Source: Parapedobacter pyrenivorans (GTDB taxonomy: Bacteria; Bacteroidota; Bacteroidia; Sphingobacteriales; Sphingobacteriaceae). Taken from it: a stretch of 64,000 bases of DNA. Positions 5,672 through 21,549 of the stretch are shown piece after piece. Location: contig NZ_BMER01000001.1 in assembly GCF_014636865.1 (NCBI RefSeq), positions 1,042,718 through 1,106,717 of the forward strand, read 5' to 3'. Under the pieces are notes generated by a model that ran no database searches, had not been told where the DNA came from, and saw only the letters and a program-made list of their open reading frames with translations. A program made the translations under genes and the position numbers. The stretch's first letter is position 1. Each line of letters starts with the position of its first letter.

Positions 5672-6058
5672 ATGAAAGTAAAACTGAAAAAGGGCATTGG
5701 AATTGTTTTCAATGTAAGCGACATCAATCGTACGGAGCGTTTTTATCGCGACATTCTGGGAATCGAAACCGAGCGCCAGCCCGGAGGAGGTGAACCAGAT
5801 TGGTTAATGGCCAAACTCAGCAGTGACGTCGAACTCATGTTTTTTCAAGGCAAGGAAGAGATCGGGCGCTCGCCGGTCGTGGTTTTCGAGCTTGAGGAGG
5901 GATATATGGAGTCTGTACTGGAAAAATTGGCTAAGGAAGGTGTCGAAATTGCTACCCCGGTGACGGAAGCCCCCGGTGGCTGGAGCGCGGATTTTTTGGA
6001 TCCCGATGGCCACCCGATTGCATTTTACCAATCGGGAGACCTGCCGCTGAGGGGATAA
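5672..6058 (+). CDS. VOC family (glyoxalase/bleomycin-resistance fold) protein
   Basis: 128 residues with the paired beta-alpha-beta-beta-beta motifs of the vicinal-oxygen-chelate superfamily: N-terminal GIVFNVSDINRTERFYRDILGIET and C-terminal PVTEAPGGWSADFLDPDGHPIAFYQ. The substrate cannot be deduced; members include dioxygenases, glyoxalase-like enzymes and binding proteins. Probably co-transcribed with the sigma-like gene 50 bp upstream. A conserved-loop hairpin (6081-6111) starts about 20 bp after the stop and could terminate the transcript. Confidence 0.85.
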   Translation: MKVKLKKGIGIVFNVSDINRTERFYRDILGIETERQPGGGEPDWLMAKLSSDVELMFFQGKEEIGRSPVVVFELEEGYMESVLEKLAKEGVEIATPVTEAPGGWSADFLDPDGHPIAFYQSGDLPLRG

Positions 6059-6062
6059 GCGG

Positions 6063-6118
6063 ACATAATTGGTTAGTTAGAAGGCTCCGATTCTCCCTGT
6101 TTCGGGGCTTTCCTTTTT
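6063..6118 (+). ncRNA. Conserved-loop hairpin element, copy 1 (terminator or sRNA 3' end)
   Basis: 5' tract ATAATTGGTTAGTTAG, then a ten-pair stem: AAGGCTCCGA (6081-6090) against TCGGGGCTTT (6102-6111), including two G-U pairs. The 11-nt loop is TTCTCCCTGTT and a CCTTTTT tract follows. Two other copies (18100, 21491) keep the tract and loop but have different stems. No TAnnTTTG box lies between the VOC stop (6058) and this element, so this copy probably ends the VOC transcript or is processed from it. Confidence 0.55.
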
Positions 6119-6166
6119 CATGAAGCAAAATGAACGATACCTCATCAGACCTGCTGAAGTTTAATG

Positions 6167-6174
6167 TACCTTTG
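6167..6174 (+). promoter_or_regulatory. -7 promoter element of the SulP gene
   Basis: TACCTTTG matches TAnnTTTG, 32 bp upstream of the SulP ATG. The -33 region has no clear TTTG, so it is called on the -7 box alone. Confidence 0.5.
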
Positions 6175-6206
6175 CACACCAAAAGTGAGGACTTCGCAAT
6201 TTCAGT

Positions 6207-7742
6207 ATGAATTCGTATTTGCATTTTTTTGATTTCAAGCAAAAAGTAAACTACAAAACGGAGATTTTAGCCGGCCTAACGGTTGCAATGACCATGGTTC
6301 CCGAATCGTTATCCTTTGCAATACTGGCAGGGCTGTCTCCGCTTACTGGGTTGTATGCTGCTTTTTTAATGGGGCTGATTACGGCCGTCTTTGGGGGAAG
6401 ACCAGGAATGGTATCCGGCGGAGCTGGCGCGACGATCGTAGTATTAATTGCGTTAAGCAAGGCCCATGGTGTGGAGTACCTTTTTGCAGCAGTTGCATTG
6501 GCGGGTTTAATGCAGTTTTTAATAGGGGCTTTCAGACTAGGGAAGTTTGTGCGATTAATTCCACAACCGGTGATGTATGGATTCTTAAACGGTTTGGCAG
6601 TTATTATTTTTATGGCACAAATTGAGCAGTTTAAGTTTACGGACAATGGAGTCACCACTTGGTTAGTTGGAACGCCGTTATATGTCATGGGTGGGCTGAC
6701 CCTGACTACGATTCTTATCGTATTGTTTTTCCCAAAAATCACTAAAGCCATTCCGGCTTCACTAATTGCTATTGTCATCATTTTTGCACTTGTTTTAGGA
6801 CTAAACATTGATACAAAAACGGTAGGCGATATTGCAAGCATTAAAGGCGGACTGCCTTCGTTTCATATTCCGGTGGTTCCGCTTACGATGGAGACATTGA
6901 AAATAATATTCCCTTTTTCACTGATCATGGCCGGCGTAGGGTTGATCGAGTCGTTGCTCACGTTATCGATGGTCGACGAAATTACCAATTCAAAAGGAAA
7001 GGCAAATAGAGAAGCCATGGCACAGGGAAGTGCGAATTTTGTCAACGGCTTCTTTGGAGGCATGGGGGGATGTGCGATGGTTGCGCAAACCTTGGTCAAT
7101 TTAAACGCAGGATCCAGAGCAAGGCTATCCGGAATTATTGCATCCCTCACCATATTGATTATTATTTTGTTTGGAGCCCCGGTAATAGAGAAGATACCCA
7201 TGGCTGCGTTGGTGGGCGTAATGATTATGGTAGCGATCGGGACATTCGAATGGGTTTCTCTGCGGATTATTAATAAAATGCCAAAATCCGATATTTTTGT
7301 CGGAATGTTGGTCGCATTGATCACCATTGTTCTTCATAATCTGGCGCTAGCAGTTTTGGTCGGGGTAATCATTTCCGCATTGGTATTTGCGTGGGATAAT
7401 GCAAAACGGATCCGCGCAAGAAAGCACATCAATGCCGCGGGGGCTAAAGTGTATGAGATTTACGGTCCGTTGTTTTTTGGTTCGGTTGCCGGCTTTTTAG
7501 AGAAATTTGATATCGAAAGCGATCCGGATGAAGTCATCATTGATTTTAAAGAAAGTAGAGTCGCAGATATGAGTGCCATTGACGCGCTGAATAAGATAAC
7601 TGCTAGGTATTCGGATATGAATAAACATGTCCGGTTGAAGCATTTAAGCAAAGATTGCCGGAGCAAGCTTGAAAAAGCCGAGGGTGTTATCGTGGTAACA
7701 ATGGAGGAAGACCCAACTTATAAAGTGGTGTCTGATAAATAG
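6207..7742 (+). CDS. SulP family inorganic anion transporter with STAS domain
   Basis: 511 residues. The N-terminal ~380 residues form the multi-spanning SulP core (start VNYKTEILAGLTVAMTMVPE, motif SFAILAGLSPLTGLYAAF), the inner-membrane transporter of sulfate, bicarbonate or a related anion. The C-terminal ~110 residues are a cytosolic STAS domain (VYEIYGPLFFGSVAGFL ... VIIDFKESRVADMSAIDAL). Substrate is not determinable: SulP proteins carry sulfate, bicarbonate, molybdate or dicarboxylates, and no sulfur or carbonic anhydrase gene is adjacent. Monocistronic, with its own TACCTTTG box at 6167. Confidence 0.93.
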   Translation: MNSYLHFFDFKQKVNYKTEILAGLTVAMTMVPESLSFAILAGLSPLTGLYAAFLMGLITAVFGGRPGMVSGGAGATIVVLIALSKAHGVEYLFAAVALAGLMQFLIGAFRLGKFVRLIPQPVMYGFLNGLAVIIFMAQIEQFKFTDNGVTTWLVGTPLYVMGGLTLTTILIVLFFPKITKAIPASLIAIVIIFALVLGLNIDTKTVGDIASIKGGLPSFHIPVVPLTMETLKIIFPFSLIMAGVGLIESLLTLSMVDEITNSKGKANREAMAQGSANFVNGFFGGMGGCAMVAQTLVNLNAGSRARLSGIIASLTILIIILFGAPVIEKIPMAALVGVMIMVAIGTFEWVSLRIINKMPKSDIFVGMLVALITIVLHNLALAVLVGVIISALVFAWDNAKRIRARKHINAAGAKVYEIYGPLFFGSVAGFLEKFDIESDPDEVIIDFKESRVADMSAIDALNKITARYSDMNKHVRLKHLSKDCRSKLEKAEGVIVVTMEEDPTYKVVSDK

Positions 7743-7807
7743 AAAACGGGCTTTTAAGGTTTGAAATCGCTTTCTGCTATTATTTCTGTTAAAATAGTTC
7801 GGCTGAT

Positions 7808-7839
7808 TTTGGAAAGTAACGCGAGAACGCTTATCTTTG
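7808..7839 (+). promoter_or_regulatory. Strong Bacteroidota promoter driving a short intergenic transcript
   Basis: TTTG (7808-7811), 20-bp spacer, TATCTTTG (7832-7839): a full match to the Bacteroidota primary-sigma promoter. The predicted start is near 7845, and no ORF of useful size follows before a terminator at 7884-7917. Confidence 0.65.
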
Positions 7840-7842
7840 TCT

Positions 7843-7917
7843 TAGGTTTAGGTTGATAGCCCCTAATCCCATTGGGGCGGATTCCCGTTATCTTTTAGGT
7901 AACGGGTTTCTTTTTTG
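7843..7917 (+). ncRNA. Candidate small RNA (two hairpins, ~75 nt) downstream of sulP
   Basis: It begins just after a full promoter (7808-7839). The 5' tract TTAGGTTTAGGTTGATAG resembles the 5' tract of the conserved-loop hairpins at 18100 and 21491. Hairpin 1 is CCCC (7860-7863) with GGGG (7874-7877), plus an inner AAT/ATT. Hairpin 2 is CCCGTTA (7884-7890) with TAACGGG (7900-7906), followed by a T-rich tract to 7917: a rho-independent terminator. No coding potential. The class is unknown to me. Confidence 0.55.
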
Positions 7918-7948
7918 AAAGCAAAAATATCCATTAAACCTTTGAAAC

Positions 7949-7978
7949 CCCGGCCACTTTAAATAAAATAGCCGGGGT
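7949..7978. terminator. Stem-loop beyond the end of the minus-strand lipoprotein gene
   Basis: CCCCGGC and GCCGGGG arms around an A/T-rich 16-base loop, 12 bp beyond the stop of the minus-strand lipoprotein gene. Likely the terminator of the minus-strand SusCD operon. Confidence 0.5.
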
Positions 7979-7989
7979 GTGAATACGCA

Positions 7990-9300
7990 TTATCGGTTCC
8001 AGATCTGTTTAATGGTTTGCTCCTGCCCCATACCTATCGGGCAAGCGTCACTGGGCGTGTTTGCCCGGTACCGGTTTCCGCTCGTGCCACTGGTGACCCG
8101 GCTTCCTGGCATCTGGATAAAACCATTAGGGTCAACCCGTTCAATCCATCCGTCGACATAGGCCAGGAATTCGTTTCGGTAGGCTTCCGGTTGATTGGTA
8201 AACCACGAGATCTCATCGAATCCCCACACAAAGTGATCATTCAGGTTTGGCGTTCCTGGATGGTCACTGATCCCAAAGTTGTCCAGCTCAACGATATAAG
8301 GTGCATGATCGCAGCTCCATCCACTTGGGGTAATGCCTCCTTTGGTCCGGCCGAATATGGCATCGAGGTGAAACTTTTTCAATTCGCCTTTTTGTGGGTC
8401 GCCAATGATCTCTTTAACGCGCATCGGGAATGAAACGAAATCAAACAGCAACCTTCCATCGCGGACCAGGCCACCGCTTCCCAGATGACCATCACACAAC
8501 ACCGTTCCCCTGCGCGCGTTGGATCGAGCGTAGTCCCTCACCTTACTCAACAGGCTATCCCAGGCTTCCACGCCACTTCCGTCACTATGCATGGCCATCA
8601 ACTCCACTTGGCCAAAGTGAATCGCCTCGATGCCGATGTTGATGTACGCTACGGCCAGGTAATAGAAATACAGCTGGGTTTCGAGCTGGCTGATGTCCGG
8701 GACGCTAGCACCTGCCCGCCAGTGGTCGATGAACTTGCCTTCCGTGCTTAGCATCTGATTGTAGTCGAAATTCCGGCTTTCGGCAGGCAGATCAAACGCT
8801 GCGAAAACCCAGGCGGGAATCTGGACTTGCCCCACCTTGGTGGATACAATTTCAAATATGCAGGCCTGGAAGATCACTTCCGGATCGGTTGCATGCACCT
8901 CCACCACCCGCTCTTTTGCGGTTGCCAGGAAAGCGGGGTTTGTAAATGCCTCCGGAATATCCCACGAGTAAATCGCTCTGCCAATAAATTTTGCTCCAAC
9001 TTCTTTGAGCATACGGAAGTCATCCTCCTTATAAGGGTATGGACCGTCGTTGTAAAACCCTTCGGAGTTCAGGTATTCGGCCTGCAGAATACTTCGGGAG
9101 AGGTAACTGTCCAGCACGTTGCGCGGTATATTCCCATCGGAAAACGTATAGTTCCTTTCGAAGGTAGGCCTGATTCTAGTTACTGTTCCTTCCCCGGATT
9201 TACTACAGGCGGCCAACACTGCGATTACCATCACCCACCCGGTGAATAGGGCTTTTTTCAAACGTAGCTTTTGCATATTTTTCATTATTTTCATGATCAT
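7990..9300 (-). CDS. Surface lipoprotein of unknown family, last gene of the SusCD operon
   Basis: 436 residues with a lipoprotein signal (VMVIAVLAAC, lipid Cys32). The mature part looks like a globular enzyme or binding protein: ILQAEYLNSEGFYNDGPYPYKEDD, VGAKFIGRAIYSWDIPEAFTN, VHATDPEVIFQACIFEIVS, IGIEAIHFGQVELMAMHSDG and WSCDHAPYIVELDNFGISDHPG. Acidic and aromatic segments would fit a (beta/alpha)8 glycoside-hydrolase-like fold, but I recognise no family or catalytic pair, so function is not assigned. It ends an operon sigma, fecR, susC, susD, L-domain lipoprotein, this gene; the preceding gene is 16 bp away. Several N-terminal Met codons make the exact start uncertain. Confidence 0.8.
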   Translation of the reverse strand: MIMKIMKNMQKLRLKKALFTGWVMVIAVLAACSKSGEGTVTRIRPTFERNYTFSDGNIPRNVLDSYLSRSILQAEYLNSEGFYNDGPYPYKEDDFRMLKEVGAKFIGRAIYSWDIPEAFTNPAFLATAKERVVEVHATDPEVIFQACIFEIVSTKVGQVQIPAWVFAAFDLPAESRNFDYNQMLSTEGKFIDHWRAGASVPDISQLETQLYFYYLAVAYINIGIEAIHFGQVELMAMHSDGSGVEAWDSLLSKVRDYARSNARRGTVLCDGHLGSGGLVRDGRLLFDFVSFPMRVKEIIGDPQKGELKKFHLDAIFGRTKGGITPSGWSCDHAPYIVELDNFGISDHPGTPNLNDHFVWGFDEISWFTNQPEAYRNEFLAYVDGWIERVDPNGFIQMPGSRVTSGTSGNRYRANTPSDACPIGMGQEQTIKQIWNR

Positions 9301-9316
9301 GTCGATTTTAATTTGA

Positions 9317-10750: not shown

Positions 10751-10764
10751 TGCAAAACTGTTGA

Positions 10765-12309
10765 TTAATTTTTCGGATTTAAATCGATTTCACGCTGTGG
10801 CAACGGGAAAAAATAAGCGTATGCCTCGTTTATCGGCTTATTGGTGACCTCCTGGAGCACCCGATTGGTTCTCCGGAGCTCGAAGAGACCGTGCCCTTCA
10901 AAAGCCAGTTCGAACGTCAATTCATCCCACACGGCCGTTCTGAATTGCTCAGGGGAAAGGCCAGCAGGTAATTCGCCCAGCCCGGCTCTTTTCCTTACCT
11001 CGTTTACCCAGTAATATCCTTCCTCGGTTGGCCCGGCTGCTTCGGCGTAGGTCAAGGCCACTTCTGCAAAGCGAATAAGGTACAGGTTGGCGCTCGTACG
11101 GTGCGAATTCGATTGCGGGTCGGTATACTTTCGGGTGAAGGGATAAAAGAATGCGAACAATGTGGGGTTGGAACTCGTCAGGTTTTCTTCAGACCAGTTG
11201 GCCAATACAGACCCATCGGCATTATAAATCGTCGTCACCATGAGCCTTTTCCGTAAATCTTCGTCATCAAAACGGTGATAAAAATCGTTGTCTACGCGGT
11301 AATATTGCCAGCCCTGCTGTCCCGGCTGGATGATCGGCGTCACATCGCCGCCTCCTGCCAATGAACCGGAAATATAAACATTGGGAATTCCGATGGTAAA
11401 TATCTGTGGCAATTGCGAATAGTTTCCTTCGAAGCCGCTACCCTCGCGGGTCATGGAGGTAATAAAGATATGTTCGCGGCTATCCGCTTGATGATTCACG
11501 TCATAAATACGGAGCAAATCGGGTTCCAGGCCGTAGGTATTCTGGCCCCGCAGCACCTGTCCGGCTATTTCGGCTGCATTTGTAAACAGTGCATCCGCGT
11601 TGGTAACCCAATCGTATCCGGGAGCGCCCGACTGTTTCGATGAGGCGAGGGTAAGGTAAACTTTGGCTAATAAAGCCTGCGCAGCCACTTTGTCCGCGCG
11701 ACCCTGTTGCTTGGCAATATTCATCAACGACATCGCTTGTTCCAAATCGCCGATGATCAAATCATACAATTCAGTAAGGGAAGCATAATGTGCTTTCGCG
11801 TCTTGTACCCCTTGTACAACCTGGGTATGATAGGGAACCTCACCATATACGCGCACAAGCATGAAATAATGGAAAGCCCTCAAAAAATGGGCTTCCCCCA
11901 AAAATTGCCTGCGTGATTCCTCTGAAATATTGGCCATACTGCCCACATTCTCCAGCACGCTATTGGCCCGGGTGATACCCAAATAGCAATACTTAAAAAA
12001 ATAGAGAATTTCCTCGGTATTGGGAGTCACTTCCCATTCAAACAGGCTTGTTTCCAATCCTTTATTATAAGATCGGTACTGGTTTGTAGGGATATCCGTA
12101 AGATTGAACAAGAACCGTGCTCCATATTCAATGTTACTTATCGGATCATATGCGTAGAGCAACGCATTTAACGCATCGGCTTCGCTTGTAAAAAAATTAT
12201 CATCCGAATACACGCCATAGGGTTGTTCCCGCAACATGTCTTCGCAAGAAGATAGGGAGACGAACAAACATGCTAAACCGGAGTAAACAAAGGTTTTTAT
12301 CGCTTTCAT
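10765..12309 (-). CDS. SusD/RagB family nutrient-binding outer-membrane lipoprotein
   Basis: 514 residues. SusD-type lids bind a glycan or peptide at the cell surface and deliver it to the SusC barrel. Lipobox LSSC at 19-22, then the classic start CEDMLREQPYGVYSDDNFFTSEADALNALLYAY. TPR-like helices follow (FLGEAHFLRAFHYFMLVRVYGEVPY, ADKVAAQALLAKVYLTLA), and the C-terminus has the family WDELTFELAFEGHGLFELRRTNR and INEAYAYFFPLPQREIDLNPKN, near the family YFFPIPQ-x-E-x-xxNP ending. It lies 25 bp after susC. The ligand is not predictable from sequence. Confidence 0.95.
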   Translation of the reverse strand: MKAIKTFVYSGLACLFVSLSSCEDMLREQPYGVYSDDNFFTSEADALNALLYAYDPISNIEYGARFLFNLTDIPTNQYRSYNKGLETSLFEWEVTPNTEEILYFFKYCYLGITRANSVLENVGSMANISEESRRQFLGEAHFLRAFHYFMLVRVYGEVPYHTQVVQGVQDAKAHYASLTELYDLIIGDLEQAMSLMNIAKQQGRADKVAAQALLAKVYLTLASSKQSGAPGYDWVTNADALFTNAAEIAGQVLRGQNTYGLEPDLLRIYDVNHQADSREHIFITSMTREGSGFEGNYSQLPQIFTIGIPNVYISGSLAGGGDVTPIIQPGQQGWQYYRVDNDFYHRFDDEDLRKRLMVTTIYNADGSVLANWSEENLTSSNPTLFAFFYPFTRKYTDPQSNSHRTSANLYLIRFAEVALTYAEAAGPTEEGYYWVNEVRKRAGLGELPAGLSPEQFRTAVWDELTFELAFEGHGLFELRRTNRVLQEVTNKPINEAYAYFFPLPQREIDLNPKN

Positions 12310-12334
12310 GTCTTTTAAATGTTGATACTAAAAA

Positions 12335-15300
12335 CTAAAACTTCAGTTGCAAACCGGCGGTGTAAATCGCCACGCGTGGATAGGGGGCAGCGCCGCGGCC
12401 ATTTTCCGCTACCTCGGGGTCGTATTCACTTACATTAGAAAATACGATAGGGTTGGAGGCATTCAGGAACACACGCGCTTGTTTTATAAAGGGGATATGC
12501 GGGAAGGTATAGCCCAGGGTCACCTGTTGTATCCGGAGGAAGCTGCCGTCTTCTACAAACCATGACGAGGCAAAATACTGCCTGTCTGCCCGTAGTTTAG
12601 GGCGTACATTATTCGGGTTTTCACCGGTCCACCGACCCTCCTGCAGGGATATCCGATCCAGTTTGCGGTTGGAGAACACATCGTTTCCATACATCGTATA
12701 AAGCATCAGCGAGAAGTCAATACCCACATCGTGCATGAGTTGGAGATTCAGACTGGATGTAAAGTCCGGGTTTGGGTCGCCGATGATTTGGCGGCTAGCC
12801 GGATCGAGCGTACCGTCTTCCCGCAATCCTACGTAATTAAATTCACCGGGCCTGGTCATTTTCACCGGGTTGCCGGGCATTTCCTGAATGATCCCGTCTA
12901 CCCGGTAGCCATAAAAGGCGTTTACGGGTTGGCCGATGGCCAACACATTTAAAAAGGCGTCGTTGAAGATTCCACTTCCATAGGGTTCATACCGAAGCCC
13001 ATTCTGGTCTACGACATACCCCGATTTTTCTTGCGATCCGATGTTAACCACCTTATTGCGGTTCAGTGAAAACACGAGTGCCGCATCGAACTTCAGTTTT
13101 CCGCTGGTCAGGATCTTCCCGTCTACCGCGAGTTCCACACCCCGGTTTTCAATTTCACCGTCGTTTGTCCAAACCCGGTCGAAGCCCGTGCTTGGATTGA
13201 GGAACTGCTGGCGCAACAGGTCATTGGTTTTCTTATAGTAGTAATCGAAGGTTACATTCAGTCTGTTGCGCAACATCGTCGCGTCAACGCCGACATCAAA
13301 TTGAGAGGTCTTTTCCCAGCGCAGGTCTTTCGTGGCCATACCCCCCCACTGCACATAGCGGTCACCGATACCCTCCCGTCCGATCTGCTGGCCGAGTCCG
13401 TAAATAATAAACTCTTCGCCGTTGAGGTAATAATAGTCCTGGCCGTACTTCGAAATGGTCTGGTAAGGTGCAATCCCCTGGTTTCCGGAAACGCCGTAGC
13501 TCGCCCGGATCTTGAGGTCATTAATGGCCTCCACATCCTTCAGGAATGCCTCTTCGGATAGCCGCCAGCTGGCGGCTCCCGAAGGGAAGAATCCCCATTT
13601 ATTGTTCTCGCCGAATTTGGAACTCCCATCCGCGCGGGCCGTGAAGGTGAGCAGGTATTTGCCATGATATGCGTAGTTGAAGCGCGTAAACCCGGAAGCC
13701 AAAACCGACTTGCTGAAGCCATTCGTGATAAAACGTTCGGTCGCGCCAGACATGTTTTCCTCCATCAGGTTATCGTTGGCAAAGCCGCGGCCCGTGGTAT
13801 TGAGGCTCTTATGGGTTCCGTTTTCGTAGGTAACACCCGCCATCACCGTAAATGCGTGCTTCTCTGCAAACGTATTCGTGTACGTCAGGTAGCCGTCCAG
13901 GGTCACATTCCGATATGAAGAGGACGCAATGCCGCCTTCGCCATCGTAGAGGTCGCCCCCTTGGGTATATACGCGTGGATTGTAGAAGTTGTGCCCGGAA
14001 AGCCCGGCACGTGTATTCCCACGTAATACCAATTCCAGGGGTTTCGCCAGTTTAACATTAAACTGGAGTGTGGCGTACCCGTCGGTATTCGGCGAGACAT
14101 CCTTTCTTTCATTGGTCAGCGCCAGGGGATTTCCATAATCAAGCGAGTTCGCTTTAAAATAGGTGCCATCGCCGTTATACGCCGGAAATAGCGGGTTCCG
14201 CTGGTAGTTCATTCCGTAATTCCGATTCCGGTCTCCGTCAATAAATCCCGCTTTCGAGATGATGGTCAGGTAATCCGACAATTCGTGCTGATACGACAAA
14301 TCCAGGGTAAGCTTCCGGTAGTCATCGTTGCGTTGCATCCCCTCCCCGTCGTAGTAGCCCAGCCCCAGGTAGTACTGACTTTTATCTCCCCCGCCCTGCA
14401 CGCCGAGATTCGTTTCCGAGGTTACTGCCGTGGGGCGGAATACGTAGCCCGCCCATTCGGTTTGGTACGGCCAGGCCCCGCTGGCAATGGCCGCCCGCGA
14501 AGGGTAGTAGGTGCCGTCTGTAGCCCGCCTGCCAATGTATATGGGGTCTATTCCCGCATTTTCGTTGGCCTCATCCGCCAGCTCCGCCATGAGCAATGGG
14601 TTGTGCCAATAGTCGAGTTTCTCGCTGAATGAACCGAAGCTGGTCTTTTGATCAAGCCAGACATTCGGCGAATGCTTGTCGCCGCGTTTTGTGGTAATCA
14701 TAATCACGCCGTTGGACCCCCGCGACCCATAAATTGCCGTGGCAGAAGCGTCTTTCAATACTTCCATCGAAAGGATAGTATTCGGATTGATGAGGTTTAG
14801 CCCGCCGGCATCCCCAAATGGGATACCGTCGACGACAACAAGCGGTGCATTGGAGCCATTGATGGAGCTAATGCCCCGCACCCGTACCGTCGAGCCGCCC
14901 TGGGGGTTGTCGTTATTGTTATTGATAACGTGTAATCCGGCCACACGTCCTTGCAATAGGGCTTCAAAGCTACCCGAGCTGGTATTTGTGATTTTTTCCC
15001 CTTTTATCGAAGCGACGCTTCCCGTGATGTCACTTTTTTTCATCGTTCCGTATCCAACCACCACCACCTCGTCCAGATCACCCATTACTGCTTTCAGCAC
15101 AATGTTAAGGCTGGATTGATTACGGATGGGCTGCTCCTGGGTTTCGAATCCAACACTGCTGAATGCCAGCAGCGTGTTCTCTTCGTCGGGCAGCACAATC
15201 CGATACGCCCCGTATTGATCGGTTAGGGCCCGGATGTCTTTGCCCACCACACTTACCGTAACACCCACCAGCGGTATCCCCGATTCATCGGTTACCAACC

Positions 15301-15703
15301 CCGTAAGTATGCGGTCTTGTATAACGGGCCGTTCCTTTTCAACTATTGGTTGTTTCGTCGTAATCGTTATGATGCCGTCATCAAGCGACCAGTCCAATCC
15401 GTGGCCGGTCAAAATAGCTTGCATCGCATCGGCGAAGTCAGCTTGTTTAACCTGAGCATCCACGCGTGTGTCTGCTATACGGTCGCCACGAAATAGGAAC
15501 GAATAACCTTGTTGTTTCTGAATCTCTTTCATTACCTCGCGCAGCGTGGTATTTTGTACGTTGAGCGTTATCTTCTGGGCTTTGCTTTCAGCGACTGCTT
15601 GGAATACAAAGGCAAGGGTCAAGAAAAGCGCTAGTTTCATAATTAGTAATAAACGGTATTTACAGGGCCGGAAATGGCCCATTACACATCGTGTAAAAAT
15701 CAT
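12335..15703 (-). CDS. SusC/RagA TonB-dependent transporter with STN signalling domain
   Basis: Up to 1122 residues. Order: signal peptide (MKLALFLTLAFVFQAVA, about 22-38); STN domain (about 45-115, ITLNVQNTTLREVMKEIQKQQGYSFLF in pieces), which in this family contacts the FecR anti-sigma factor; a carboxypeptidase-regulatory-like domain (about 130-205); plug with DEVVVVGYGT and LEVLKDASATAIYGSRG-type motif; then a 22-strand-type barrel ending GLQLKF. The STN domain and the upstream sigma/fecR genes indicate trans-envelope signalling, so substrate induces its own operon. Start uncertain: ATGs at 15703, 15682 or 15640; the last gives the cleanest signal peptide. Confidence 0.95.
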   Translation of the reverse strand: MIFTRCVMGHFRPCKYRLLLIMKLALFLTLAFVFQAVAESKAQKITLNVQNTTLREVMKEIQKQQGYSFLFRGDRIADTRVDAQVKQADFADAMQAILTGHGLDWSLDDGIITITTKQPIVEKERPVIQDRILTGLVTDESGIPLVGVTVSVVGKDIRALTDQYGAYRIVLPDEENTLLAFSSVGFETQEQPIRNQSSLNIVLKAVMGDLDEVVVVGYGTMKKSDITGSVASIKGEKITNTSSGSFEALLQGRVAGLHVINNNNDNPQGGSTVRVRGISSINGSNAPLVVVDGIPFGDAGGLNLINPNTILSMEVLKDASATAIYGSRGSNGVIMITTKRGDKHSPNVWLDQKTSFGSFSEKLDYWHNPLLMAELADEANENAGIDPIYIGRRATDGTYYPSRAAIASGAWPYQTEWAGYVFRPTAVTSETNLGVQGGGDKSQYYLGLGYYDGEGMQRNDDYRKLTLDLSYQHELSDYLTIISKAGFIDGDRNRNYGMNYQRNPLFPAYNGDGTYFKANSLDYGNPLALTNERKDVSPNTDGYATLQFNVKLAKPLELVLRGNTRAGLSGHNFYNPRVYTQGGDLYDGEGGIASSSYRNVTLDGYLTYTNTFAEKHAFTVMAGVTYENGTHKSLNTTGRGFANDNLMEENMSGATERFITNGFSKSVLASGFTRFNYAYHGKYLLTFTARADGSSKFGENNKWGFFPSGAASWRLSEEAFLKDVEAINDLKIRASYGVSGNQGIAPYQTISKYGQDYYYLNGEEFIIYGLGQQIGREGIGDRYVQWGGMATKDLRWEKTSQFDVGVDATMLRNRLNVTFDYYYKKTNDLLRQQFLNPSTGFDRVWTNDGEIENRGVELAVDGKILTSGKLKFDAALVFSLNRNKVVNIGSQEKSGYVVDQNGLRYEPYGSGIFNDAFLNVLAIGQPVNAFYGYRVDGIIQEMPGNPVKMTRPGEFNYVGLREDGTLDPASRQIIGDPNPDFTSSLNLQLMHDVGIDFSLMLYTMYGNDVFSNRKLDRISLQEGRWTGENPNNVRPKLRADRQYFASSWFVEDGSFLRIQQVTLGYTFPHIPFIKQARVFLNASNPIVFSNVSEYDPEVAENGRGAAPYPRVAIYTAGLQLKF
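15682..15696. promoter_or_regulatory. 15-bp perfect inverted repeat at the 5' end of the STN-type susC
   Basis: TTACAC-ATC-GTGTAA. It overlaps a candidate susC start codon (15680-15682) and lies just upstream of a plus-strand TACATTTG box (15703-15710), where it could gate the opposing transcript. Confidence 0.35.
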
Positions 15704-15817
15704 ACATTTGTAAAGTTTGGATGGTTAAAAAATGGTTTTCGGCTTCAGTGAACACAATGGCCGAGTATCAATCCAAGCAAACGAAGCGGGTGATGTTATC
15801 AGCATCATCCGTTTTTT
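15703..15817 (+). ncRNA. Candidate antisense small RNA across the susC leader
   Basis: A plus-strand TACATTTG (15703-15710) could start a transcript near 15716. It would end at a clear rho-independent terminator: GCGGGTGATG (15786-15795), loop TTATCAG, CATCATCCGT (15803-15812), then TTTTTT. The T-run is on the plus strand only, so it cannot serve the minus-strand genes. The transcript (~100 nt) would be antisense to the region between fecR and susC. In Bacteroides, small RNAs antisense to susC leaders (DonS type) are known; equating this one is inference. No clear -33 box. Confidence 0.4.
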
Positions 15818-15924
15818 GCATGCGTAGACTTAAATGGTTTATATGTTACTTTTCCATGTGCTAATCTCCTTTTTTAGTTAACATTGGTTATTTGAAATTA
15901 TAATCGGGTGATGTCAGATAACGG

Positions 15925-17163
15925 TTATTGCTCTCCCAAGACAATAAGCCGGTTTATTCCCGCTGAATGAACGATCTTAAAGCTCAATCCGCTTTTTTCC
16001 AGTGATTTTAAGACAGACTCCAGTGATTTATTTCGATCAATCATGCCGAAAATATTGATTTGAGGAATTTTCCCCCGATAGACTACCTCTAGATCATACC
16101 AACGAGCCAATTGCGTAATGGCAATTTGAGGGGACAATCTGTCGAAATAGAAAAAGCCATCTTTCCATGCGGTGTATTGATCCGGATCTGCCTTTTGGAC
16201 GTTGATGATTCCCTGCCGGTTAATCGCTTGTTCACCGGGGGCCAATATGGTGGTGCCGAGACGTTCTGATACGGGGGCATCCGCTGCTGTGCCATTGCTC
16301 GTAGAAACACTTACACGCCCGGTTACCAGCGTAGTCTGGGTTTCGCTTTCATCCGGGTACGCCGAAATGTTGAATTCCGTTCCCAGCACCTTCACCACTT
16401 GGCCGTTACTGACCACGCTGAACGGAACATCATCCGGTACGCCCGCCTTTCCCTTCCTTTTCGTCACCGAAAAATACGCTTCGCCCTCCAGGTACACCAC
16501 GCGCTCACGGCCGTCAAACCGTGAGGGATATTTCAGGGTAGTGGCTGCGTTGAGCCAAACCTTAGAACCATCTGGGAGGATGATGGAGTATGTTCCTCCC
16601 TTCGGCGTTGAAAGCACGAGCGTCTCGATAGGTGCTTTGTCATCACCCAGCCCGACAATTTGGGAATGGCCGTCGTTGTACGTAATCTTTCCCGCTCCGA
16701 TGATGATTCCATCCTGCGTGTCGTCCAAGGCGATGGCTCTGCCATCGGCGAGTGCGAGGGTAGCACGGTTGGTGCCTGGAGCTATCTCCGCGGCTGTGAT
16801 TTCCTGTTCGGGCGGCCGCTGGTTATTGTTCCATACAAGCAGACTTACTGCCATGGCAAGGACGACCGCCGCGGCATACGGCAACCACTTCGGTAGCTGT
16901 GTAATCCGATGTTTTATTAGCGAAACCCGTTGCGGGGGCTGCATGATAATCTGTTGGAATATCCGCTCTTTCGCATCGCTATTTGGATTAATGCCGCTTG
17001 CCGGGGACTTGGATAGGCGATAGTAGCCGGCATAAAAAGCATCCTTCACCATGCTATCGGCATTTGGGTCGGCCAATAGGTTTTCCAACTCACCCAATTC
17101 TTGAGGTGATGCCGAATCGTTGAGATACTGTTCAACCAAATACGTAATCCTACCGTTATCCAT
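15925..17163 (-). CDS. FecR family anti-sigma factor
   Basis: 412 residues from the ATG at 17161-17163 (MDNGRITYLVEQYLND), preferred over an upstream in-frame start with a Cys/Arg-rich lead. Inner-membrane anti-sigma regulator: N-terminal cytosolic sigma-binding part (1-80), one membrane segment (about 105-125, YAAAVVLAMAVSLLVW), periplasmic FecR domain (GGTYSIILPDGSKVWLNAATTL is the hallmark strand), and C-terminal DUF4974 domain (FYFDRLSPQIAITQLARWYDLEV). It should hold the ECF sigma inactive until the STN-type SusC signals occupancy. Lies between the sigma and susC genes. Confidence 0.95.
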   Translation of the reverse strand: MDNGRITYLVEQYLNDSASPQELGELENLLADPNADSMVKDAFYAGYYRLSKSPASGINPNSDAKERIFQQIIMQPPQRVSLIKHRITQLPKWLPYAAAVVLAMAVSLLVWNNNQRPPEQEITAAEIAPGTNRATLALADGRAIALDDTQDGIIIGAGKITYNDGHSQIVGLGDDKAPIETLVLSTPKGGTYSIILPDGSKVWLNAATTLKYPSRFDGRERVVYLEGEAYFSVTKRKGKAGVPDDVPFSVVSNGQVVKVLGTEFNISAYPDESETQTTLVTGRVSVSTSNGTAADAPVSERLGTTILAPGEQAINRQGIINVQKADPDQYTAWKDGFFYFDRLSPQIAITQLARWYDLEVVYRGKIPQINIFGMIDRNKSLESVLKSLEKSGLSFKIVHSAGINRLIVLGEQ

Positions 17164-17269
17164 GTTCCTATGTCGGCATCGATTGTCGCGGTTTCCCGCA
17201 AAAAGCAATGCGCTCTTTAGACGTAGACGAACGGCGGGTGTTTTCGGGGGTATCGTTAATGAAGTTTTT

Positions 17270-17860
17270 TTAGATCAGCCTGAACACAATCAGTATCATT
17301 ACAATGTCCGTGCGATGGGCCAGGTGTTTTCGGAGCGCGCTGAGCGCTAGTTTCATGTAAGACTGTACTGTAGCGGGAGAAAGATTAAGCTCTTTAGCGG
17401 CCTCTTCGTACTTTAAGCCCTGCTGGCGGCAAAGCCGAAATACGCGTTTCTGTTGTGGTGCCAATAATTCGATGGCCTCATCGAGTATCCTGCGCGTATC
17501 ATTGAGCATGATTTCTTCTTCGGTGTCGTTATGTGATTCCGACCAATCTATGCTGATTTCACGATTTGCCCGTACGGTTAGCTTTCTTCGACGGAGTATA
17601 TCAAGTGCGTGGTTGCGTGCCATGGTAATCAAGTAACTTTCAAGATTTTCAATTTTCGTCAATCTGTCTTTGAGCGTCCATATTTTTAAGAAAGCATATT
17701 GAACCATTTCCTCGGCAAACAGGTCTGATTTGAGCAGGCGAAGGCCATAGGCATGGAGACTGTCGTAATAGTGGTCATAAATGACTCGAAAGGCTCGTTG
17801 GTCTCCCTGGGCTACCTTAGCCAGTAGCTTACGTTCATCCAATAAGATTTTGGCGGCCAT
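17270..17860 (-). CDS. ECF RNA polymerase sigma-70 factor
   Basis: 196 residues. Region 2: GDQRAFRVIYDHYYDSLHAYG ... ESYLITMARNHALDILRR. Region 4: AIELLAPQQKRVFRLCRQ ... LKYEEAAKELNLSPATVQSYMKLALSALRKHL. This Bacteroidetes FecI-like class (sigma plus FecR plus STN-SusC) activates the adjacent transporter genes. First gene of the minus-strand operon, with a TAACTTTG box (17890-17897) just upstream. The target is inferred from gene order. Confidence 0.95.
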   Translation of the reverse strand: MAAKILLDERKLLAKVAQGDQRAFRVIYDHYYDSLHAYGLRLLKSDLFAEEMVQYAFLKIWTLKDRLTKIENLESYLITMARNHALDILRRRKLTVRANREISIDWSESHNDTEEEIMLNDTRRILDEAIELLAPQQKRVFRLCRQQGLKYEEAAKELNLSPATVQSYMKLALSALRKHLAHRTDIVMILIVFRLI

Positions 17861-17889
17861 TTACGTCTATCCATTTATAATTGATCCTG

Positions 17890-17897
17890 CAAAGTTA
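17890..17897 (-). promoter_or_regulatory. -7 promoter element of the ECF sigma gene
   Basis: Minus-strand TAACTTTG matches TAnnTTTG, about 30 bp upstream of the sigma start codon. No good -33 box. Confidence 0.45.
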
Positions 17898-18032
17898 GTA
17901 AAATCTGCTCGTTTCTATCGACCTACTCACGGCGCACTTCACTAAGATAAAGATGTGTGAGACCCCGGACAAATAGATTTTTTAAAAGTGATGGTTCGCC
18001 GATAATATGAAAATCCCAACAAGAATTTTACA

Positions 18033-18083
18033 CTTCTGTTGTAATTATTGAGCCTGGGGAGCGTTATATGTATAATACAGAAG
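18033..18083. promoter_or_regulatory. Inverted-repeat region upstream of hairpin element copy 2
   Basis: Part of the 362-bp gap 17861-18222. CTTCTGT (18033-18039) and ACAGAAG (18077-18083) form perfect inverted arms 37 bp apart; the sequences continuing inward (TGTAAT, ATTATA) are also loosely symmetrical. Between them lies TTGAGC-N17-TATAAT, like an E. coli sigma70 promoter, whereas the Bacteroidota box here is only GAAGTTTG. Which element, if any, starts the downstream hairpin RNA is not decidable. The rest of the gap shows nothing. Confidence 0.3.
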
Positions 18084-18099
18084 TTTGTCTTTTCATAAT

Positions 18100-18156
18100 A
18101 GGTTTATAATTGGTTAGTTAGAAGACCCCGATTCTCCTCGTTTCGGGGTTTTTCTT
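18100..18156 (+). ncRNA. Conserved-loop hairpin element, copy 2
   Basis: 5' tract AGGTTTATAATTGGTTAG followed by TTAGAAG, identical over 18 bases to copy 3 (21491). Stem CCCCGA (18126-18131) with TCGGGG (18143-18148), extended by A/G-T pairs outside; 11-nt loop TTCTCCTCGTT; then a T-rich tract. It stands alone between the divergent sigma operon and the tail of the GNAT gene, so it is not simply a gene's terminator on this strand. Likely a small RNA; class unrecognised. Confidence 0.6.
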
Positions 18157-18222
18157 TGGCCGACAATCAAATAGTCTACAGTCAGCTATTGCTCGCAGGG
18201 GCATCGATAGTATTTTGGCCAA

Positions 18223-18945
18223 TCACAGCGTACCAAGCAAGATATGACCACATACACGCATACCCGCTTTTAGCAATGTTGCTTTCGAAGCGATGTTTTT
18301 TATATTGCAGCGCGCAGAGGGAACCCTATTCATTCGGTAGGCTTCGTTCTTTAATTCCTGTGTAATCAGACTTCCCAAGCCTTTTTGCCGGTGGTCTTCG
18401 TCTACTTCATAGTAGATATCAATATATGGGAAATTATAACTCCATACGTGGCCCCCGCTGGCGACTACTTGACCATTTTGCTCCAATACATATTGCGGGT
18501 CATGCTCACCGCGCAGCCCGCTCTTCCTGAATACGGTATGGGATACTTCAAAATTTGTTTGGATGCTATCTTCAAACAAGATGGCTTCTGCATGGATCGT
18601 ATTGGCGTGCTCAAATAGAATTGCAGTCAAGCAAGTGTCATTGCTCTGGCAGTTGATGTATGCTGCACCCGAAACCCGGGCGAACTCCCGGAAAACTTTG
18701 CCGGCCAATCTCCTGAAAGGCTCAAGCAGGTAAAACTCGAATACCGTATCCCTGTCCATCCGGTTATTTTTACCCCATAACGATCCATAACCTACCGGCG
18801 AGCCGTTCAGCGTGAAAATATAGGTGTCAGCCCAACCCGCAGCATGGCACTTGTGATAGACAAATTGAAAGGAGATCTCTGCGAGGAAAAGATTGCGCAA
18901 TTCCTGGATTTCTGCCAATGACGTTTTAAGGATGTTGAATTGCAT
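18223..18945 (-). CDS. GNAT family N-acetyltransferase
   Basis: 240 residues from the ATG at 18943-18945 (MQFNILKTSLAEIQELRNLFLAE); a longer frame adds 15 residues that do not look native. The C-terminal half holds the acetyl-CoA motif (YYEVDEDHRQKGLGSLITQEL, with RQKGLG as the RxxGxG-type pyrophosphate loop). The N-terminal half is a second GNAT-like lobe, so this is probably a two-lobed member. Substrate unknown. Monocistronic. Confidence 0.85.
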   Translation of the reverse strand: MQFNILKTSLAEIQELRNLFLAEISFQFVYHKCHAAGWADTYIFTLNGSPVGYGSLWGKNNRMDRDTVFEFYLLEPFRRLAGKVFREFARVSGAAYINCQSNDTCLTAILFEHANTIHAEAILFEDSIQTNFEVSHTVFRKSGLRGEHDPQYVLEQNGQVVASGGHVWSYNFPYIDIYYEVDEDHRQKGLGSLITQELKNEAYRMNRVPSARCNIKNIASKATLLKAGMRVCGHILLGTL

Positions 18946-19072
18946 AAACAGCCTGTTTGGTAAATTGCTTGATTTGGAGTAACACTCCATATCAAATTTA
19001 CATTTTTTTCAGCTATTTATTCCGCGCGACAAAAAATCAGTCAACGGACCATGGATCACGAAACCTACCCTT

Positions 19073-19561
19073 TTATTTAAGAATGGATGCGATAACGGCT
19101 ATTATAAAACTGACAACGGCCGCTATGGTGCGGATTAAATTCAATTTATTCCAGGAGGCCTCAAACCTTTCCCTTAAGGAAAACAACTCTTGCAATGAGG
19201 CGGTGTTAAGATTAGTAGACTCCAACATATTGTTTAATGGCACATTCCCAAATATAGTGACACCAAATACCCCAACAACATAGATGACGGTAGCCGATAG
19301 GAACAGCCAAAATGAAAAATTAATACCGGCATTGTAAGAGAACCAAGTTACCGCCGGCAGAACGACCAAGCTACCCATAAAACTCGTGAAGAACCAAGCA
19401 TTCAAAATAACGTTATTGATCGACTGGAAAGCCATTAAATATTCCCTGTCCGAAAGCTTGCCCAACCCGCCCGTGACGGAACAGGCATAGCTATAAAATA
19501 GCCCTGCCGCTAAGCCGGTCAATGATACCGCTATGATTTGAATGATCTGATAAAAACCCAT
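19073..19561 (-). CDS. DUF1772 (anthrone-oxygenase-like) membrane protein
   Basis: 162 residues from the ATG at 19559-19561 (MGFYQIIQIIAVSLTGLAAGLFYSYACSV). Four hydrophobic segments with the family's LxAGLFYxYxCSVxxGL start, FQSINNVILNAWFF and WNKLNLIRTIAA near the end. Related proteins are named after fungal anthrone oxygenases, but bacterial members have no proven reaction. It lies 75 bp downstream of an AraC-type regulator on the same strand, which probably controls it. Confidence 0.8.
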   Translation of the reverse strand: MGFYQIIQIIAVSLTGLAAGLFYSYACSVTGGLGKLSDREYLMAFQSINNVILNAWFFTSFMGSLVVLPAVTWFSYNAGINFSFWLFLSATVIYVVGVFGVTIFGNVPLNNMLESTNLNTASLQELFSLRERFEASWNKLNLIRTIAAVVSFIIAVIASILK

Positions 19562-19636
19562 AATTTTTGATTTAAAACTTGGGAGCAAAAATATAGGGCG
19601 GACAAAAATAGAAATTGAATAAATCGGACAAAGTGA

Positions 19637-20422
19637 CTATCGCAGATTTTTTAGCTGCAAAGGCCTTTTTCCCGTAAATTTCTTGATGTTTCGTATAAAA
19701 TGGGATTGGTCGGCGTAACCGTTCTCATAGACGATGTCGGTCAATCTCGAAAAGTCACCGGTAGCGATTTGCTCCAGCGAAGTTTGGAACTGTATTATTT
19801 TTGCGAACTTTTTGGGAGATATCCCGACATAATGATTGAATTTTCTTCGCAACGTTCTTTCGGTGGCATTGAGTCGCTTGGCCAGCTCGTTGACGGCGAT
19901 TATACCTTTATGGTCCATGACAATTTGAATAGCCCGTTGTATTTCTCGGTACTCATCCATTCCTTTTTCCCGGGCAAGCTTCGAGACGAATTTTGCAATA
20001 ATTTCAGTCTGTACAATTATTTCGGAATGAGCAGCTAAAGATTTTAATGGATTTTCTATGGTTGCCCACTTGATTTCTGAAAGGTCATGACAGTCGTCGT
20101 TTAATTTTCGCGGGTCAACATCAAACAACAATTTGGAAGCAAAGGGGTACAGTTGAAAAACAATCATCAAATAAGGCCCCGTCATCAAAAGGTCGAAGGG
20201 CGCTATCATCTGTCCGTATAGGAAAAATTCGGTAAGTTCTTTTTTTCGTGGTAGTAAAAGCCCTTTTTCTGATTGCAGATATACCATTCCCGGATAGCCA
20301 TCCGCAAAAAACCGAAGCGTAGAATTTTTTGGGCCATCCTCGTGCGCTAGAATGAAAATTTCCTTAACGAACAATTCCAAATCGTTATCGGCTATTATTT
20401 TAGCGGTATCTATCAACGTCAA
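19637..20422 (-). CDS. AraC family transcriptional regulator
   Basis: About 261 residues. The C-terminal ~100 residues carry the two AraC helix-turn-helices: VNELAKRLNATERTLRRKFNHYVGISPKKF and LTDIVYENGYADQSHFIRNIKKFTGKRPLQL. The N-terminal ~150 residues are a small-ligand-type sensor (RFFADGYPGMVYLQSEKGLLL). No ATG lies at a sensible position; the frame opens at a TTG (20420-20422) and is open further upstream, so the exact start is uncertain. Upstream of the DUF1772 gene on the same strand, its likely target. Confidence 0.88.
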   Translation of the reverse strand: MTLIDTAKIIADNDLELFVKEIFILAHEDGPKNSTLRFFADGYPGMVYLQSEKGLLLPRKKELTEFFLYGQMIAPFDLLMTGPYLMIVFQLYPFASKLLFDVDPRKLNDDCHDLSEIKWATIENPLKSLAAHSEIIVQTEIIAKFVSKLAREKGMDEYREIQRAIQIVMDHKGIIAVNELAKRLNATERTLRRKFNHYVGISPKKFAKIIQFQTSLEQIATGDFSRLTDIVYENGYADQSHFIRNIKKFTGKRPLQLKNLR

Positions 20423-20551
20423 ATCATTTTGTTTCGCAGGCTTGCTTAATTCGTAGACACGCTTATACCAGAAGCAAACGAAACAAAAATAGGAAAATCC
20501 ATAGGACTTCTCCCCTATACGAGTTCAATTGTTTTTTTGCATATTGCCGGT

Positions 20552-21373
20552 ATGAAGATGTTTATCGTTTCGCTTTTGTTTAATCTGCCTCTCGTCTTTT
20601 CCTGCGCGGTAGGGGCAAGCGGTTCGGAGGATGGTCGGGTCGCCCCATCAGCAGACACGATCACTGTGATGGCTTACAACATCCACCATTGCAATCCACC
20701 CAGTGAATCGGATCATATAGACGTTGATACGATTGCGCAGGTAATCCGCAAGCAAAATCCCGATTTCGTCGCATTACAAGAAGTGGATGTGCATACAAAT
20801 CGCTCCGGAAAGGAGCTCGACCAAGCCAAGCAACTCGCCGAGTTAACTGGGATGCACTATTATTTCAAGAAGGCCATCGATCACGACGGTGGAGAATATG
20901 GCGTGGCTATCCTCTCGCGGTGGCCCATCCAGGATACCGCTAGCATCCAATTGCCCATAGCGCCGGATGTAAGGCACGAACCGCGGGTGGTCGCGGTGGC
21001 GAATGTAACGTTGCCTTCGGGAAGAATAGTGCAATTTGCCAGTACACACTTGGACCTGACCGAAGAAACCCGCGTTTTGCAAGCAGCCGAAATCGTTGCC
21101 CGTTTGGGAGTTGGGGCTGGCGTACTGGTGATTGGGGGTGATTTCAACGCACGACCGGGAAGTAAACCGATACAGGCGCTGGAAGCTTCGTTCCAAAGTA
21201 GCTGCGCGCCCGCAGATTGCCCGTATACTATTCCTGTAGATGAGCCGAAGGCAACTATCGATTACCTGTTTTACCGAAAGTCTACAACCATCACTGTGCT
21301 AAATCATTACGTGGTCAGCGAAAAATATGCCTCAGACCACCTACCCATAGTCGCTACACTTCGCTTAGAATAA
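20552..21373 (+). CDS. Secreted endonuclease/exonuclease/phosphatase (EEP) superfamily hydrolase
   Basis: 273 residues from the ATG at 20552. A hydrophobic N-terminus (MKMFIVSLLFNLPLVFSC) is either a Sec signal or a lipoprotein signal. EEP catalytic motifs are complete: VMAYNIHHC (metal-binding Asn), FVALQEVD (metal Glu), ASTHLDL, GGDFNARPG (Asp/Asn) and SDHLPIVA (catalytic Asp-His). These Mg-dependent phosphodiesterases and phosphatases act on nucleic acids, phosphoinositides or sphingolipids; the export signal argues against DNA repair. Monocistronic, upstream of the second susC but separated by its own terminator-like region. Confidence 0.88.
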   Translation: MKMFIVSLLFNLPLVFSCAVGASGSEDGRVAPSADTITVMAYNIHHCNPPSESDHIDVDTIAQVIRKQNPDFVALQEVDVHTNRSGKELDQAKQLAELTGMHYYFKKAIDHDGGEYGVAILSRWPIQDTASIQLPIAPDVRHEPRVVAVANVTLPSGRIVQFASTHLDLTEETRVLQAAEIVARLGVGAGVLVIGGDFNARPGSKPIQALEASFQSSCAPADCPYTIPVDEPKATIDYLFYRKSTTITVLNHYVVSEKYASDHLPIVATLRLE

Positions 21374-21445
21374 TGATTTAATGTCCTGATGTTGAGCGGT
21401 TTTAATCGGCGATTAACCGAAAGTCTTAAAAAAAATGTTTTTTAT

Positions 21446-21476
21446 TTTGCATAGTGTAAAAAATACACTATCTTTG
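21446..21476 (+). promoter_or_regulatory. Promoter with embedded perfect operator upstream of the second SusCD pair
   Basis: TTTG (21446-21449), 19-bp spacer, TATCTTTG (21469-21476): a textbook Bacteroidota promoter. The spacer is almost filled by ATAGTGTA-AAAAA-TACACTAT (21451-21471), a perfect 8-bp inverted repeat, so a dimeric repressor bound there would block the polymerase. Predicted start near 21483, just before hairpin copy 3. Confidence 0.6.
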
Positions 21477-21482
21477 TTGCAT

Positions 21483-21549
21483 CATAATTTAGGTTTATAA
21501 TTGGTTAGTAAAGGTTTCCATTCTCCCCGTTTGGAAACCTTTCGTTTTT
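21483..21549 (+). ncRNA. Conserved-loop hairpin element, copy 3 (leader attenuator or small RNA of susC)
   Basis: Tract AGGTTTATAATTGGTTAG (21491-21508), then a perfect ten-pair stem AAAGGTTTCC (21510-21519) with GGAAACCTTT (21533-21542). The 11-nt loop is TTCTCCCCGTT with an A-T closing pair, followed by CGTTTTTA. It lies about 7 bp after a strong, operator-bearing promoter and ~160 bp before susC. It is either a 65-nt small RNA or an attenuator controlling read-through into susC. Confidence 0.6.

Follow-up and report, generated by a model that had tools for sequence, protein, structure and literature searches.

Introduction

Only two small RNAs (sRNAs) of the Bacteroidota with worked-out mRNA targets, FopS and GibS, were met in the literature surveyed, both in Bacteroides thetaiotaomicron. 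According to PMC11697453, the FopS RNAs comprise 14 paralogs in that species and 12-15 in named relatives; they are about 65-70 nucleotides (nt) long, follow canonical promoters and consist of a single-stranded 5′ stretch, which holds the seed, and a terminator hairpin. One member is derived from a 3′ untranslated region (3′ UTR), the RNA also occurs in a phage, the targets lie near susC-like start codons, the protein RbpB binds and antagonises the RNAs, and the structure is stated there to have been deposited in Rfam. GibS, by PMC7366714 and PMC11697453, has a conserved seed in its single-stranded 5′ part, through which it pairs with regions of translation initiation; in the latter source it is one sRNA bearing two seeds, and its two direct targets are given as a glucan-branching enzyme and a hypothetical protein. 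Here we analyse three short hairpin elements of a 64,000-nt stretch of Parapedobacter pyrenivorans DNA (contig NZ_BMER01000001.1, positions 1,042,718 to 1,106,717; hereafter the window) and propose, with a probability of about 0.78, that they belong to a family of multicopy, short, trans-acting RNAs repressing the translation of SusC transporters, working like FopS.

The likeness concerns form and kind of target, and in action the family would be FopS-like. It is multicopy, with 19 matches in its own genome and 6-20 in each of the nine genomes of its genus; its predicted structure is an unpaired 5′ stretch followed by a Rho-independent terminator hairpin, and its 5′ seed is, as computed here, complementary to susC-like translation starts. 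The canonical FopS promoters are of the TTTG/TAnnTTTG type; here the TAnnTTTG box precedes 53 of 184 cellular copies, the others having a different or no recognised class. The family differs from FopS in belonging to another bacterial family and in that some copies stand behind boxes like those of extracytoplasmic function (ECF) sigma factors or behind tRNA-like genes. With GibS it shares the conserved single-stranded 5′ seed, and it differs from it in that the GibS targets are not susC. No match named FopS was returned by Rfam, either for the window at the gathering threshold or for element 3 at an expect value (E) ≤10, although release 15 may not hold FopS; and in the accessible literature surveyed no such RNA was named for Sphingobacteriaceae among the matches listed.

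A family with a constant leader and covarying stems

The three elements (element 1 at 6063-6118, element 2 at 18100-18156 and element 3 at 21483-21549, plus strand) are present where an earlier note on this DNA had placed them. Its description of a shared tract, ATAATTGGTTAG, of 11-nt loops (TTCTCCCTGTT, TTCTCCTCGTT and TTCTCCCCGTT), of a closing A-T pair, of two G-U pairs in element 1 and of T-rich tails agrees with the sequence. The tract itself was drawn too short: it is present, and the shared part reaches further 5′, forming a 27-nt leader in elements 2 and 3. Taken singly, the three elements fold better than shuffled sequence by a moderate margin only (z −1.6, −2.9 and −2.5).

A pattern written from the loop had 20 hits in the genome (5.9 Mb), whereas its reversed form had 5. 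These 20 are 16 full copies, three unrelated places and one decayed copy, L001 (G000:C1:21213), in which the loop and the 3′ arm are left and a different hairpin lies upstream. A covariance model built from the 16 copies, R1, gave the 19 own-genome matches at E ≤0.001; the E-values of R1, as those of the model R2 described below, are rough. The constant part of the alignment is the 27-nt leader TCATAATTTAGGTTTATAATTGGTTAG (UCAUAAUUUAGGUUUAUAAUUGGUUAG), predicted to be unpaired in the consensus fold; after it come a hairpin whose sequence is free and a T tract. In the 16 copies 93.7% of the cells are paired, nine of the 11 pairs show changes on both sides, and the covariation score was reached by none of 500 shuffles, which bears out the earlier claim of selection on RNA structure through covarying stems; the number of extra pair types did not exceed the shuffles (348 of 500 reach it). 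A larger alignment of 105 matches in 100 further loci (102 distinct rows), itself fitted to the structure, has 95.2% of its cells paired and 336 cells changed on both sides, against 100 ± 9 in shuffles; the number of pairs with such a change, 11 of 11, was again not above the shuffles (69 of 500). From these 105 leader-bearing sequences the model R2 was built. Some of the relatives' loci were chosen by the leader pattern, and the identity of the leader in them is no independent evidence of conservation. Of 228 leader matches, the three without hairpin (L102, L149, which is from an archaeal bin, and L180) were left out of the counts of 184 cellular and 41 viral copies used throughout.

None of the three elements matches an Rfam family at gathering, and the matches of element 3 at E ≤10 are far below it. 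Among the loci of relatives, one tRNA and Flavo-1 were the sole passes; the Flavo-1 RNAs (RF01705) lie in L206 and L238, loci that also carry members of the family.

Complementarity to susC translation starts

Read as its reverse complement, the leader ends in ATTATGA, a stretch that includes a start codon. Besides the copies themselves, no site in the genome is complementary to the leader over its full length, with up to 3 mismatches of 26 allowed. The starts of susC genes, however, resembled this complement. All 56 own-genome matches to TIGR04056, the SusC family, were therefore taken as the target set, and duplex energies over −45 to +6 were compared with those of shuffled leaders. The mean energy at the 56 starts was −13.1 kcal/mol, against −9.2 ± 0.7 kcal/mol for shuffled leaders (z −6.0, none of 200 as low); with 100 other shuffles z was −5.0. 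Removal of the start codon left a z of −4.7. Control regions of the same genes gave z +0.2 upstream (−250 to −199) and −0.4 within the coding sequence (+60 to +111). In the duplexes the leader tends to lie with its 5′ end over the start codon and with its 3′ part 10-25 nt further upstream. The same leader gave z −5.6 at susC starts of g16 (30 of 56 matches, one genome) and −5.4 at those of the genus g13 (30 of 107 matches, two genomes), though R1 had found no RNA in g13. When susC starts were set against those of the next gene (the gene downstream of susC, not checked to be susD), 30 each, z was −5.4 against −2.2 in the own genome and −5.9 against −2.6 in g16.

LhrC and the other UCCC-motif sRNAs have C-rich loops, occur in paralogous copies and act through C-rich stretches. 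With these as a parallel, the earlier note had suggested that the loop could contact purine-rich mRNA sites; in such a reading the leader would be secondary. CCC is indeed common there, being found within or next to the loop of 179 of the 184 cellular copies and of 26 of the 41 viral ones. The complementarity of the loop to start regions is, nevertheless, weaker than that of shuffled loops (z +1.2 for the 56 susC genes, +2.5 for 154 other genes), in which the family differs from the UCCC-motif sRNAs; nor is the loop constant, its type varying between copies and genera, with GTCTGGATGGA-like loops that are not C-rich in the g13 members. LhrC itself appeared as a chance-level Rfam match of element 3, with 13.4 bits against a gathering threshold of 110. 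We consider action through the loop very improbable; a contact of the loop with a protein or with another loop is possible. Judged by computed complementarity, it is the leader and not the loop that is directed at the targets, and the proposal of the earlier note that the hairpins form a family of regulatory RNAs is probably right.

Parallel changes in leader and susC starts across two genera

The susC starts of g13 carry CTAACCAAAT in place of CTAACCAATT. CCAAAT and CCAATT, respectively, occur at 15 and 1 of the 30 g13 starts and at 2 and 11 of the 56 own-genome starts; elsewhere the figures are 1 and 4 of 30 for susC of g16, and 1 and 4 of 154 for other genes of the own genome. From the motif of the g13 starts it was therefore predicted that g13 has a diverged RNA with ATTTGGTTAG (AUUUGG) in its leader. 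R2 then found in all 18 g13 genomes tested an RNA with TATATTTGGTTAG (ATTTGG), matching the prediction, the best matches having E-values from 3.6e-5 to 0.0103. Since R2 at E ≤1 matches all 24 genomes searched, and weak R2 matches alone carry no weight, membership of the g13 RNAs rests on the 17-nt core GGTTTATATTTGGTTAG that all 18 genomes have in common. By its construction from leader-bearing sequences R2 favours similar leaders, yet nothing in it favours the change seen in g13.

In each of these two genera the starts pair better with the genus's own seed. Among the own-genome susC starts 34 pair better with the own seed and 9 with the g13 seed (13 ties, p 2.5e-5), and among those of g13, a set of 30 that includes L364 (a susC with an internal stop, its start probably misplaced), 22 pair better with the g13 seed and 3 with the other (5 ties, p 7e-4). 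Other genes of the own genome show no preference (p 0.1). With the g13 leader, the g13 susC starts reach z −7.4, against −1.3 for the next gene (30 each). Seed and targets changing together between two genera constitute a natural experiment that is hard to explain without pairing.

Proposed mechanism

What was computed here is the family, its covariation, the complementarity and how specific it is, and the change that leader and targets undergo together between two genera. We infer from them that the elements are transcribed, element 1 as the end of a 3′ UTR and the others as RNA genes, and that the RNA ends would give a length of about 65-75 nt from TAnnTTTG promoters and about 20 nt more from the ECF-like ones, each RNA consisting of the unpaired leader and the terminator hairpin. 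In the cell, the 5′ end of the leader, UCAUAAUUU, would form a duplex with AAATTATGA, start codon included, on the mRNA of susC-family genes, and UAUAAUUGGUUAG, in the 3′ part of the leader, would pair with AACCAATTATA, which lies some 10-25 nt before the start. Occupation of the start site by the leader, possibly assisted by a protein partner, would block the ribosome and repress many SusC transporters together. With copies behind housekeeping-type and ECF-sigma-like promoters, behind tRNA-like genes, in the 3′ UTR of an mRNA and among phage genes, different signals could feed one repressive pool.

Several results weigh against this proposal. As for the energies, the first ATG of each open frame served as start codon, and some of the starts are wrong; the mean duplex energy lies beyond all shuffles, but the number of susC starts at or below −10 kcal/mol does not (40 of 56; 100 shuffles average 19.7, and their maximum is also 40). 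As for specificity, the 154 other genes (those of the window and of loci L068-L080) show a slight complementarity (z −1.7) and, lying in the window or around other copies, are a non-random sample; the next gene is mildly complementary in the own genome and in g16; the upstream control of g13 is not clean (z −2.2); and the susC gene beside element 3 (21707..24925) is a poor target, at −8.5 kcal/mol. As for the matched change, when the predicted g13 leader was searched for as a pattern in one spelling, no convincing terminator hairpin came up among the 30 of 38 matches viewed, real and reversed-pattern counts for that leader being similar; of the prediction, the core ATTTGGTTAG alone held letter for letter, the rest being partly right; and the g16 susC starts have no seed preference (16 against 11, 3 ties, p 0.7). 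The loop, moreover, finds no explanation in repression by the leader. Finally, the motif at susC starts might have another cause and be merely mirrored by the leader; an RNA adapted to a pre-existing motif would still be a likely susC binder.

Upstream signals and the position of copies

In addition to the 53 copies with a TAnnTTTG box, 36 of the 184 non-redundant cellular hairpin copies follow a tRNA-like 3′ end and 16 a GCGTTATA box, and 79 have no recognised upstream class, as judged by patterns; for the 41 viral copies the corresponding numbers are 1 (TAnnTTTG), 10, 0 and 30. The TAnnTTTG motif, which we take to be the −7 promoter box of Bacteroidota, lies exactly 13 nt upstream of the leader's TAGG in 48 of the 54 copies bearing it, and a −33 TTTG is spaced 19-20 nt from it in 34 of the 36 copies that have TTTG 17-23 nt before the box. 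Given this fixed geometry, the transcript of the TAnnTTTG class should begin at or near the leader. In the GCGTTATA class the box is preceded by AACAAA, and the class resembles, in its sequence, an ECF-sigma promoter, from which the RNA would carry about 20 extra bases 5′ of the leader. The box of element 2 is without the AACAAA that precedes the same box in other class A copies.

These signals bear on the alternative that the elements are terminators and nothing else, a conserved leader aiding termination or 3′ processing with no action in trans. Element 1 does follow the stop codon of a gene, the 36 copies 3′ of a tRNA-like end would fit such a role, and all counted copies have hairpins, although by selection. 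Against this stand the promoter boxes, found in 53 copies as TAnnTTTG, mostly at one fixed distance, and in 16 as the ECF-like box; and the idea predicts neither the complementarity to susC starts nor the matched change in g13. We hold it to be improbable.

Class-II tRNA-like genes (Leu-like, with a long variable arm) stand directly upstream of the element in L249 (five tandem units), L175, L206, L136 and L238. By eye, their anticodon loop reads TTGTCTC or TTGTCGC, which puts GTC in the place of the anticodon; the anticodon stem has a U-U mismatch, and CCA is not encoded. ARAGORN reported no tRNA in these five loci and the Rfam tRNA model likewise none; the latter passes for L061. The anticodon arm contains CACCTCCTT, which presumably resembles the 3′ end of 16S rRNA.

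The copy at C3:96298 has both flanks kept in eight of the nine genomes of the genus (the own and seven others); it did not turn up among the loci fetched from G008, a part of that genome's matches. From TCATAAT to the end of the hairpin arms the eight sequences are the same, and the 75 nt just upstream diverge except for the promoter boxes. A few other own copies have one flank in common with a relative; the three copies of the window have no flank match among the loci fetched, again part of the relatives' matches. The many copies per genome, their local clusters and the fact that, among loci fetched, both flanks match the same relative locus for one of 16 own copies could suggest a mobile repeat, of the repetitive extragenic palindromic (REP) or miniature inverted-repeat transposable element (MITE) kind, spreading between genes with the hairpin as transposition signal. 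That idea has to face the coincidence of the element boundaries with promoter and terminator, the copy kept in place in eight genomes, stems that covary around a fixed leader and a leader with a target set, and is in our opinion very unlikely. Repression of SusC translation by a multicopy RNA remains the reading that we prefer.

Distribution

The covariance-model search that the earlier note had proposed reveals copies throughout the host family, Sphingobacteriaceae. Among 60 relatives, R1 has matches in 28: all nine genomes of the genus, the own included, 19 of the 28 other members of the family and none of the 23 outside it. In an order-wide sample of 300 genomes, 178 were positive, and with them 14 of the 17 genera; in a phylum sample nine of 395 genomes were, all within Sphingobacteriaceae. 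Copy numbers per genome in these two samples, with R2 as with R1, are lower bounds, the 12-15 best candidates having been scored. R2 matched 27 of the 395 genomes at E ≤0.01, 16 of them outside the family, with nominally about 4 expected by chance. These outside matches suggest that the RNAs may form a phylum-wide class. Plasmid records searched gave no match. Leaders such as ATTTATTATTTTGGTTTTGGTTAGTTAA are found outside the family; possible relatives are L508, L521 and L522 (f26/g51), which have in common a leader with a GGTTAG core and differ in their hairpins, and L509 and L513 (g56), with another common leader. L516, a further possible relative, has the loop TTCTCCCAGAA.

Viral copies

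Viral copies were collected as 48 IMG/VR stretches carrying the leader pattern; since they were chosen by the leader, its identity in them is no independent evidence. R1 matches 46 of them, 47 times in all: L134 has two matches, and L094 and L102 have none. Gene content was viewed in four of the viral contigs: L106 and L127 have the element after terminase and portal genes, in L119 its neighbours include an integrase-like and a portal gene, and L131 has it close to a tape-measure gene. Phage records yielded one weak match, in Tenacibaculum phage JQ (L466:1499-1527), which was rejected as a member: its 26-nt leader-like stretch, without hairpin, is the antisense of the start of a small phage open reading frame (ORF; AACCAATT..AAATTATGA). 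A 3.6-kb piece of the viral contig L130 had no match in phage records.

Viral copies could act on receptors. It is conceivable, and we put it forward as a tentative and rather unlikely extension, that phages carry copies with an intact susC-directed leader near head, tail or integration genes, switch off host SusC-type outer-membrane proteins that could serve as receptors and thereby exclude competing phages, the RNA class being a regulatory currency of hosts and phages over much of Bacteroidota; the ECF-like, housekeeping and tRNA-linked copies would then be the host side of that currency. Blocking of receptors by viral copies is speculation resting on complementarity to susC.

Features of the window

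The leader remnant of element 1 starts six bases 3′ of the stop codon of a glyoxalase-like ORF (5672-6058; glyoxalase by Pfam). Adjoining element 2, the region 10765-17860 holds an ECF sigma factor, FecR, the receptor with STN and Plug domains and, downstream, an ORF of 514 amino acids; the start of the ECF sigma gene pairs well with the leader (−16.5 kcal/mol). Coordinates are collected in Table 1.

Table 1. Parts of the three elements and associated genes, in positions of the window
Feature	Position	Strand	Details or basis
Element 1, 3′ part of leader only	6065..6076	+	ATAATTGGTTAG; sequence
Element 1, terminator hairpin	6081..6111	+	Arms 6081-6090/6102-6111, loop TTCTCCCTGTT 6091-6101
Element 1, T-rich tail	6112..6118	+	Sequence
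Element 2, GCGTTATAT box, putative ECF-sigma-like promoter class	18061..18069	+	Sequence
Element 2, leader, two T below consensus length	18093..18117	+	Sequence, alignment
Element 2, terminator hairpin	18122..18152	+	Arms 18122-18131/18143-18152, loop TTCTCCTCGTT 18132-18142
Element 3, −33 TTTG box of predicted promoter	21446..21449	+	19 nt before TATCTTTG
Element 3, −7 box TATCTTTG, Bacteroidota TAnnTTTG type	21469..21476	+	Sequence
Element 3, unpaired leader (27 nt), complementary to susC starts	21482..21508	+	Alignment, duplex energies
Element 3, terminator hairpin	21510..21542	+	Arms 21510-21520/21532-21542, loop TTCTCCCCGTT 21521-21531
Element 3, T-rich tail	21543..21549	+	Sequence
SusC-family gene, downstream of element 3	21707..24925	+	One of the 56 TIGR04056 matches of the genome
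TonB-dependent receptor, STN and Plug domains	12335..15703	-	Pfam; in ECF-sigma/FecR gene group near element 2

Implications

The family offers 56 exact, testable susC-family targets in this genome, together with a reason for the number of its copies, which would pool different signals. Beyond P. pyrenivorans, the results suggest that another large family of bacteria generally places susC starts under antisense control.

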